Made by a program: the position numbers and the translations under genes. The notes beneath the pieces were generated by a model that saw only the letters and a list, made by a program, of their open reading frames with translations, was not told the origin of the DNA and made no database searches. From assembly GCA_029008875.1 (NCBI GenBank), contig JAQXJP010000035.1, positions 124,001 to 188,000 on the forward strand: a stretch of DNA of 64,000 bases, given 5' to 3'. The DNA comes from Lachnospiraceae bacterium (GTDB lineage Bacteria > Bacillota > Clostridia > Lachnospirales > Lachnospiraceae). Positions 21,435 to 23,061 of this stretch are shown one piece after another (position 1 is the first letter of the stretch; each line of letters begins with the position of its first letter).

Positions 21435-21722
21435 ATGAATGAAAAAATAGCAAGCGCTCTTCCTTTGGCAGCCATGGATGAAATTCCAACCCCAAACAGC
21501 GATGCGGTAACCATCACCGGCCTTGTGAAGGAGCGTGGTCGCATCACCGGTTACCAGTTGTCGGACGACCGAATTGTCAGCCGGGAGGAGGGTGTTTCCA
21601 TGGCCAAGGCCGGACAGATTCGCGGCGTCGGTGTGGCCCACAAAAAGGAGACGGAATACCTCAAATCCATCCCGGACGGCACGGAAAGCAACAACCTTTC
21701 CTCCCTCCCCACTGTGAACTAG
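21435..21722 (+). CDS. DUF3892-like small protein
   Basis: 95 residues, soluble. The middle part (ITGLVKERGRITGYQLSDDR, then the block VSREEGVSMAKAGQIRGVGVA, KKETEYLKSIPDGTESNNL) matches the pattern I know from DUF3892 proteins, which are small, widespread in Firmicutes and uncharacterised. AGGAGG lies just upstream of the ATG. Its TAG stop (21720-21722) is formed by the left end of the 1-kb inverted-repeat-bounded element, so the last residues may be recent. Function unknown. Confidence 0.7.
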   Translation: MNEKIASALPLAAMDEIPTPNSDAVTITGLVKERGRITGYQLSDDRIVSREEGVSMAKAGQIRGVGVAHKKETEYLKSIPDGTESNNLSSLPTVN

Positions 21723-21876
21723 GGAGGTTCCTTCTGTCACGGGCCATCGCCCTTTGGCTAGGGGGCGTGTGGACACATTATAACAAACCGGAAGTTGTCG
21801 AGTTGTTTGTAAGAAGAGGAACTACTTGCCTGAAGGTAAGTAGCTAGCCGGGAGGTTGGGGCTTGGTTATTATGAG

Positions 21877-22275
21877 AATCTGTCAGTCTTAAATGGGGGC
21901 AAGTGCCAAAAAAGACCGACGGAAAAGCGGAATTTGGGCTGATTCAGAAGAATCTGTCAGTCTAAAATAAGGGCAAGTGCCAGAAGAGACTGACGGGAAA
22001 GCAGATTCTGAAGAACTTGTCAGTCTTAAATGAGAGGAAGTGCCAAAAGAGACTGACGGGAAAGCAGAATTTGGGCTGATTCAGAAGAATCTGTCAGTCT
22101 AGAATGGAGGCAAGTGCCAGAAAAGACTGACGGGAAAGCAGAATTTGGGTTGATTCAGAAGAATCTGTCAGTCTAAAATGGGGGCAAGTGCCAGAAAAGA
22201 CTGACGGGAAAGCAGTATTTGGGTTGATTCAGAAGAATCTGTCAGTCTTAAATCAGGGAAAACGTCAAAATGGAC
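21877..22275. repeat. Tandem array of 74-bp two-hairpin units
   Basis: Units start at 21877, 21951, 22014, 22088, 22162 and a partial one at 22236. Four full units are 74 bp; the unit at 21951 is 63 bp because 11 bp are deleted. Each contains CTGTCAGTCT paired with AGACTGACGG (one T-G wobble in RNA) around a loop with GGCAAGTGCC, and a second hairpin GATTC-AGAA-GAATC at the unit junction. The period is not a multiple of three, so the array does not encode a peptide repeat. Confidence 0.85.
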
Positions 22276-22317
22276 AGACACTCAGGTGGAACGCTACATA
22301 TTAAGGAACGCCTATCT

Positions 22318-22580
22318 CTACATATACATTCTGTATTTTTGCTAATATATAGCCGGGAGCATGCCTCTACGTATACATTCTGCATTTCTGAAAAAATAAC
22401 CGTAGTCGGGAGTTCATCCCTACGGATATATTTTGCATTTTGGAAAAAATAGCCGTAACTTACGCCCCGTTGCTACGTATACATTCTGCATTTCTCGAAA
22501 TATAGCCGTAACCTACGCCCTTTCCCTACGGATATATTCTGCATTTCTCGAAATATAACCGTAATCAGCCTACCTAATAC
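22318..22580. repeat. Tandem array of 53-bp hairpin units
   Basis: Five units begin at 22318, 22367, 22420, 22473 and 22526 (spacings 49, 53, 53, 53). Each starts CTACG[T/G]ATA[C/T]ATT and has a TTCTGCATTT centre and an AAATATA[A/G]CCGTA right side, so that TACGG-ATATATT can pair with AAATATA-CCGTA. Unrelated in sequence to the 74-bp array that precedes it. Confidence 0.8.
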
Positions 22581-22626
22581 GTTAGCCAAACATCTCGACA
22601 GCTTCCAGTTTGTCGAGTTGCTTGCT

Positions 22627-22663
22627 AAAAAAGTACCCGTACATTTTTGGCTAATGTACGGGT
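22627..22663 (-). terminator. Terminator of the ech-hyp operon
   Basis: ACCCGTACA (minus strand, 22663-22655) pairs perfectly with TGTACGGGT (22643-22635) over an 11-base loop and is followed by ACTTTTTT. It lies inside the candidate mobile element, about 55 bases beyond hypA. Confidence 0.75.
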
Positions 22664-22716
22664 GTATTTTCTTAAAACTCTAACTAAATAACATTGCCGT
22701 GACAGAAGGAACGTCC

Positions 22717-23061
22717 CTACATCTCCAGTTGGATGTCCTCCACGGTGAGGTCATTCCAGATTTGGGGCCGGAGCCTTTCGCTGCCACACTTAGGGCAGTG
22801 CTGCATGGTCAAGTCCTTGGGAAAAACGCCGCCGCAATCCCGGCACAGGATGGTGGTGGGGACGAGCTTCGCGATAATTTTTGCGCCCTCCGCCACGGTT
22901 CCCTCCGCAAAAATACTCAGGTATTCCTCAATGATCTCGGGCACGTAATCGCAGCCTTCCCCCATCCGGATGGTAACGCTCACCACCCGCTTGGGCTGTT
23001 CCCGTTCCACCACATCCATAACAATTTTGTAGATTCCTTCCGTCACCGGTAATTCATGCAT
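22717..23061 (-). CDS. hypA: Hydrogenase nickel incorporation protein HypA
   Basis: 114 residues, normal length. The Ni-binding N terminus MHE is intact (His2) and the zinc site is C73xxC76...C89xxC92. It delivers nickel to the large subunit precursor, normally together with the GTPase HypB. Last gene of the ech-hyp operon, nine bases after hypE. Its TAG stop (22719-22717) is supplied by the right end of the inverted-repeat-bounded element. No hypB follows, where it is often found. Confidence 0.93.
   Translation of the reverse strand: MHELPVTEGIYKIVMDVVEREQPKRVVSVTIRMGEGCDYVPEIIEEYLSIFAEGTVAEGAKIIAKLVPTTILCRDCGGVFPKDLTMQHCPKCGSERLRPQIWNDLTVEDIQLEM

Follow-up and report, generated by a model that had tools for sequence, protein, structure and literature searches.

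Palindrome-associated transposable elements (PATEs) are non-autonomous palindromic passengers linked to enzymes of the IS200/605 type. According to Di Nocera et al. 2013 (PMC3733652), REPs are units of 20-40 bp, GTAG REP termini often supply TAG stops to flanking open reading frames (ORFs), convergent REPs can lie no more than 20 bp from either flanking gene, and there are TIRtrons as well as moderately abundant repeats of the terminal-inverted-repeat (TIR) type. TIRYTs have been suggested to correspond to subclass 2.1 of TnpA_REP, which has a C-terminal helix-turn-helix (HTH) (PMC6006769). For TnpA_REP itself, single-strand recognition is described, together with a role of GTAG in the choice of cleavage site for one member (PMC8266576), and in E. 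coli an influence on translation is reported for REPs that lie near a stop codon (PMC12306157). Here we analyse a 1-kb segment within a 64,000-nucleotide stretch (the window) of the genome of a Lachnospiraceae bacterium (the source genome, G000; 2.63 Mb, 43 contigs). Judged by sequence comparison, the segment is probably a large, nested, non-autonomous element of the TIRYT/REP type, with ends like those that flank a Y1 transposase gene at another place in G000.

The element spans positions 21720-22719 of the window, between a DUF3892 gene and a converging hypA gene (Table 1). Its 23-nt inverted arms (21720-21742 and 22697-22719) are complementary at 22 of 23 positions (96%) and enclose 954 nt, and both genes terminate in a TAG that constitutes the outermost three bases of the element (ORF ends 21722 and 22717); the preliminary description of the locus was right on both points. 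By Pfam, the DUF3892 and HypA proteins are full-length and thus show no noticeable truncation by the element. The 16-nt core of the end occurs exactly twice in the window, and up to three mismatches yield four matches versus 0.38 expected. In the left (A-type) end, a column of the end alignment that hardly varies otherwise is altered, so the window copy may be inactive. Both ends share a CTTCTG variant, which only two other ends of the source genome have, and beside neither of them does inspection by eye show a clear partner half that would complete a short unit. A GCCATCGCCCTTTGGC-like motif in the inner part of the A-type end is common to most ends of the source genome, and the inner part of the B-type end, GCAATGTTATTTAG, is shared with C42:1814-1947.

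Of the hairpin arrays and terminator that had been described in the interior, two arrays, with units of about 74 and 53 nt, are present, and the terminator is a consensus match in a region with three terminator-like sites versus 1.4 (s.d. 1.3) in shuffled sequence, which is not a significant excess. ORFs of at least 40 aa lying wholly within the element comprise only 41-60 aa, none of them a plausible gene, and Rfam gave no match (window at the gathering threshold; 21600-22800 at E<=1). We also considered RNA structure in the 74-nt unit. Across 57 distinct stretches inspected by eye, the GTCAGTC/GACTGAC heptamers hardly change, or change in one partner of the pair only, and compensatory change thus makes no case for such a structure.

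Table 1. Features of the window element and its neighbours (positions in the window), and palindromes of a related species (G003). R1, 45-position model of the ends.
Feature	Position	Strand	Remarks
DUF3892 gene, converging left neighbour, 95 aa	21435-21722	+	Pfam DUF3892, profile 2-71 of 71
Left terminal inverted repeat (A-type end)	21720-21742	+	Outer TAG is the DUF3892 gene stop; 48.3 bits with R1
Inner part of A-type end	21743-21782	+	GCCATCGCCCTTTGGC-like motif, then core junction shared with C23:520-614
Nested core element	21783-22613	none	Own inverted ends, imperfect (by eye): 21783-21809 / 22587-22613
Array of ~74-nt units	21875-22295 (approx.)	+	Inverted GTCAGTC/GACTGAC heptamer pair per unit
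Array of ~53-nt hairpin units	22301-22561 (approx.)	+	Repeat period
Terminator-like hairpin	22633-22665	both	13 pairs on +, 11 on -; consensus match only
Right terminal inverted repeat (B-type end)	22697-22719	-	Outer TAG is the hypA stop; 36.1 bits with R1
hypA, converging right neighbour	22717-23061	-	Pfam HypA, profile 1-111 of 112
G003 palindromes	L233 (C173:5086-5800), L231, L235, L236		

The ends of the element belong to a dispersed family. With up to two mismatches, the 16-nt end core has 31 matches in the source genome versus 3 for the reversed control, and model R1, built from 30 of 38 end stretches (3 duplicates merged; 5 left out, including the most divergent), has 38 matches. The consensus in this genome is (G)T[A/G]GGGACGTTCCTTTTGTCACGGCCATCGCCCTTTGGCTCGGGG. 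Among 38 non-redundant ends with at least 60 bases of flank, the first three bases are TAG in 20, TGG in 15 and something else in 3. A G precedes the end in 25 of 38, compared with 25 of 34 in a second species (G012) and 8 of 39 in a third (G003). Ends are often located at or close to gene 3' ends, and short units of 54-57 bp are present on C3, C17 and C28. Two longer candidates for cargo-carrying elements, on C25 (1567 bp) and C17 (1181 bp), proved to be units flanking ordinary genes, of which that on C25 is presumably GH32-like, judging from its sequence. The preliminary description had set against mobility the case of a segment present at the same locus in all relatives with no copies elsewhere. 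The opposite is observed: copies lie elsewhere, and among 62 genomes of the genus (G000 included) 8 carry ends, the other 54 being without a match at E<=0.001 under the stricter filters of the multi-genome scan, which took in several incomplete genomes.

Two genes of the source genome match Pfam Y1_Tnp (PF01797). One of these, C10:62311-63084 (258 aa), is enclosed by inverted ends of the family 1149 bp apart. Its product scores 60.4 bits (profile positions 6-120 of 121) and contains HVH and RYIHYNP, taken as the HUH motif and the presumptive catalytic tyrosine. Three further homologues with 57-69% identity are found in two other species (one in G012, two in G003), and each of the four genes at this level (at least 57%) is bracketed by an inverted pair of ends from this family, one of them adjoining a cluster of three end units. 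Homologues with at least 54% identity are present in 4 of the 62 genomes, all of which have ends (G000 38, G003 32, G012 31, G020 2), whereas ends occur in four of the other 58 (8, 3, 1 and 1; Fisher p=1.3e-4, with a threshold chosen after the hits had been seen and kinship ignored). The G020 homologue is partial, 54% identical and on a different contig from the two ends of that genome. When any Y1 homologue is counted (E<=1e-5), 7 of the 62 genomes have one and 5 of those 7 have ends: G046 and G050 contain homologues of 35-40% identity and no ends, and the 36% homologue of G067 is on a different contig from its single end. G016 has 8 ends and no Y1 match. The second Y1 gene of the source genome (L111, C38:88285-88719) is 32-33% identical to the C10 protein, and no such end lies within the 7 kb fetched around it. 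The REP-associated tyrosine transposase family NF047646 of NCBIfam is the best match for three of the Y1 proteins (55.2, 61.4 and 56.9 bits), at scores under the curated cut-off of 80 that would define RAYTs proper. For a C-terminal HTH in the C10 protein, HTH_26 (14.9 bits) and HTH_7 (12.1 bits) both score under their cut-offs, and a PDB sequence search with the Y1 protein gave no match at E<=0.1. The earlier suggestion of mobility is therefore well supported for the end family, with its tens of copies at unrelated loci, its patchy distribution among species and a transposase inside; the composite in the window may in addition have moved as a unit.

Stop codons coincide with these ends far more often than the background would predict. 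We tallied ends with at least 45 bases of flank and without duplicate sequences, using crude, ORF-based gene calls and a threshold of 100 codons, under which the left gene of the window (95 aa) falls. The TAG of a TAG-type end closes an ORF that reaches this threshold in 11 of 20 cases in G000 (41 ends examined), 9 of 11 in G012 (34 ends) and 4 of 5 in G003 (39 ends). As background, the stops of kept ORFs account for 87 of 1042, 32 of 321 and 28 of 527 intergenic-or-stop TAGs, respectively (5-10%); against the GTAG background (8-11%), binomial p values are 5e-7, 1e-7 and 2e-4. In a larger collection (93 ends from other records, with some overlap with G012 and G003) the count was 12 of 18. Among the genes stopped in this way are lysS, ade and aroA, the C-terminal 320 residues of which reach the ends of their family profiles within three positions (493 of 496, 549 of 552 and 412 of 415). 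With an ORF cut-off of 90 codons, elements extending from stop to stop comprise the window element, C19:4001-4600 and C28:2728-2781 in G000 (3 of 13 true placements, the listed C28:2274 being a false end) and C173:5086-5800 in G003 (1 of 12 listed, some overlapping, the list giving C65 twice and C13 thrice); none of the 4 in G012 does so. A different hypA-like gene in G012, 32% identical (L043:1493-1946), also stops at the TAG of an end of this family.

The DNA between the ends of the window element is a second repeat family. Homologues of the core occur in the source genome on C42, C23, C40 (two), C16, C12, C30 and C4, and no end lies beside those on C40 (two), C16, C12, C30 and C4 in the DNA fetched (C16 and C30 are cut by contig ends). 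The core thus also occurs without these ends, making the window element a nested composite. The junction of the A-type end with the core recurs at C23 (82% over 96 columns) and that of the B-type end at C42 (84% over 132 columns); relative to the ends, the core has the opposite orientation there. More than one locus has thus carried the composite. No second complete end-core-end copy was seen in the G000 assembly: C23 has one end, with a contig break on the other side, and C42 has the B-type end only. The contigs C23 (L087), C16 (L097) and C30 (L099) break off within the hairpin-array core, and cores and complete composites are thus probably more numerous than counted here. Across the 62 genomes, the core was matched in G000 only, plus an end fragment of it in G010, which has no match to the framing ends. 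Arrays alone are found at further loci of the source genome (C9, C21, C13 (two), C12:79960 and C8). Stand-alone arrays of ~74-nt units at L100, L102, L103, L104 and L105 have the inverted GTCAGTC/GACTGAC heptamers and no TIRs, and could be protein-binding arrays. Stand-alone arrays of 53-nt hairpin units lie at L082 (C16:11762-12128) and L106 (C35:374756-374933), with a fragment at L250 (G010). The flanks of three TIR-less cores (L101, L099 and L094) have another repeat in common (around TTCTGTCCTATATCAC), which may be the end of a different mobile element.

Ends of this family also frame large palindromes. The source genome contains five complete elements of 579-600 bp, and partial ones, that are imperfect palindromes framed by ends, and G003 contains four of 541-765 bp framed by its own end variant (80-84% of one half pairs with the other). 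When the G003 palindromes were compared with the G000 element, no match was found at the 60 nt or more that the comparison lists. The window element and a 1005-bp pair in G012 are not palindromic as a whole (0.24). The G000 family has a ~380-bp core (L077:3619-4197, L081, L086, L075; further copies L175, L176, L180, L182-L185, L188, L189), and the core occurs at about a dozen further loci. Of nine such further loci, seven show nothing end-like at up to 6 mismatches in 20, one has a distant 6-mismatch match and one, L176, has a degenerate end right at the border. From locus to locus the outer arms of the palindromes differ, but within a copy they are complementary to each other. Arm agreement in the five framed copies is 0.94 within a copy versus 0.85 with other copies for the end unit and 0.77 versus 0.41 for the outer stretch, whereas the inner arm shows the opposite pattern, with 0.57 within a copy versus 0.82 for the same arm between copies. 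Nine further copies give 0.79 within (range 0.56-0.89) versus 0.53 between, and the effect is weaker in the G003 palindromes (0.71 versus 0.54, then 0.65 versus 0.62 further in). From these alignments, the outer arms and end units seem to have been homogenised or duplicated within each palindrome copy, which could explain why units arrive as inverted pairs. This homogenisation is seen in palindromes only; the matching ends of the window element are limited to 23 nt.

We looked for the state of such loci in relatives. Homologues of the DUF3892 gene occur in 5 of the 61 other genomes of the genus, and hypA was matched neither at those five loci nor at the hypE loci of the 7 relatives examined; by the longer hyp-gene matches, genomes of the genus are only 64-72% identical to G000. 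As these loci gave no base-level empty site, we used aroA and tyrA, the neighbours of C19:4001-4600 in G000, where the 600-bp element alone fills the gap from stop to stop. tyrA was matched in 58 of the 62 genomes, and 30 loci were compared (that of G000 and those of 29 relatives). aroA converges with tyrA in 17 of the 29 relatives, with a gap between match ends of 22-213 nt in 16 and 1391 in one; in the remaining relatives aroA lies elsewhere (1) or was not found (11). By eye, the gap often holds an ordinary terminator hairpin. The scan for end units at these loci covered the tyrA strand, and a lone unit on the opposite strand would escape it. aroA-tyrA is an empty site at the level of the locus, not of the base.

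These observations bear on what the segment is. The TA at both borders of the window copy, which the preliminary description took for insertion into a TA target, would, with terminal inverted repeats and no coding capacity, fit a MITE of a TA-targeting, TA-duplicating DDE transposon (Tc1/mariner or IS630 type), and in any copy with TA at both ends the TA could formally be a duplication. The rest of the family speaks otherwise: 15 of 38 ends begin TGG and some elements run TG...CA (for example, C10:54685-55264), so that T[A/G] seems to belong to the inverted end rather than to be a duplicated TA. When the five flanking bases on each side were compared by eye for 13 placed G000 elements, 12 showed no direct repeat, and the 3-nt match at the other (C17:68634) looks like chance. 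The transposase genes found inside the ends, where Y1 genes were looked for, are Y1, not DDE, and we regard a DDE origin as very improbable and largely refuted.

It is a possible, if doubtful, reading that the two ends are independent solo REP-like units, one at the stop of each gene, with the core inserted separately and the 1-kb segment never moved whole. The short units on C3, C17 and C28 show that solo forms exist, two ends can simply flank an ordinary gene (as at C25), C42 has one end only, and cores stand without an adjoining end on C12, C40 (two), C30, C4 and C16 (C30 and C16 again cut by contig ends). Yet both end-core junctions recur, one at C23 and one at C42, the two window ends have in common the CTTCTG otherwise seen in only two G000 ends, and a clear partner half completing a short unit is missing beside both (by eye). 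Quite improbable, in our estimate, is a structure that is not mobile now and is retained by the host as bidirectional terminator and stop-codon supplier: its patchy occurrence (8 of 62 genomes), its many copies and the transposase inside the same ends speak against such a role, and relatives have ordinary terminator hairpins in the aroA-tyrA gap instead (by eye). The exact stop-to-stop position, the hairpin-rich content and the terminator-like hairpin on both strands would suit it, as would the effect on E. coli translation reported for REPs near stops (PMC12306157), but terminator-like sites are not significantly above shuffles.

For the reading that we prefer, a nested, non-autonomous TIRYT/REP-type element, the following course is proposed. 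The C10 Y1 (HUH) transposase probably recognises (G)T[A/G]GGGACGTTCCTTTTGTCACGG ends as folded single strands and would move or copy the DNA between them with no target duplication; single-strand recognition and GTAG-guided cleavage are attributed to this Y1 by analogy with the enzyme described in PMC8266576. Because many ends begin TAG, insertion joining a TAG-type end in frame to the last codon would leave the protein intact. In the window, the element fills the whole tail-to-tail spacer and provides the stop codon for both genes and perhaps, through its hairpin, a terminator, with the hairpin-array core and its own inverted ends sitting between, and possibly moving with, the outer ends. A bolder proposal, to which we assign a low probability, is that the TIRYT family targets stop codons by true choice beyond later selection, replaces tail-to-tail spacers, including their terminators, with foldback DNA, and repeatedly captures unrelated palindromes and arrays, the arms and end units of which subsequently overwrite one another at each locus; the pairing of ends might even come from duplication of the flank by the palindrome itself.

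A kilobase of anonymous-looking DNA is in this way tied to a definite transposase, and with 31 to 38 end copies in each of three related species, the end sequence can be matched to the enzyme. The question raised is whether REP-type transposases choose stop codons or terminators, or whether selection leaves only such insertions. The palindromes within the same ends are unrelated in sequence between two species yet alike in form, which suggests that this class of Y1 enzyme may favour or generate long foldback DNA. As non-autonomous passengers of palindromic form tied to a Y1-type enzyme, the elements resemble PATEs in outline.

The preliminary description knew of no element of this composition, and that now needs dividing. 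Since GTAG REP termini that act as TAG stops are in print, the stop-codon feature is already precedented, as are ends of the TIRYT/TIRtron kind; descriptions were not found for a size of a kilobase, a nested hairpin-array core or large palindromes framed by such ends. Our literature searches, whose coverage excluded bioRxiv and most subscription papers, returned no description of TIRYT ends framing palindromes or arrays this large. With TIRYTs and TIRtrons the family shares a Y1 gene between long terminal inverted repeats, and TIR repeats that are dispersed in moderate number, single or paired (31-38 in the three Y1-holding genomes). Of the published GGGGWSAS motif, the first six of eight positions agree (GGGGAC) with GGGGACGT in the TG-type ends and the last two differ, and the C-terminal HTH of TIRYT subclass 2.1 is only weakly indicated in the Y1 protein here. 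Unlike TIRYTs and TIRtrons, end pairs here also frame ~0.5-1 kb of palindrome or hairpin-array DNA. With GTAG REPs, BIMEs and REPINs and their RAYTs, the family shares a GT[A/G]G-like foot (in G000 and G012) and inverted pairs (PMC2817692, PMC8266576, PMC3116915), as well as sites near gene 3' ends and the TAG used as a stop (both in PMC3733652). The GT[A/G]G foot is not general here, however, as G precedes the end in 8 of 39 cases in G003, and, in contrast to GTAG REPs, the ends of this family carry a ~45-nt conserved stretch and their paired forms reach 0.5-1 kb.
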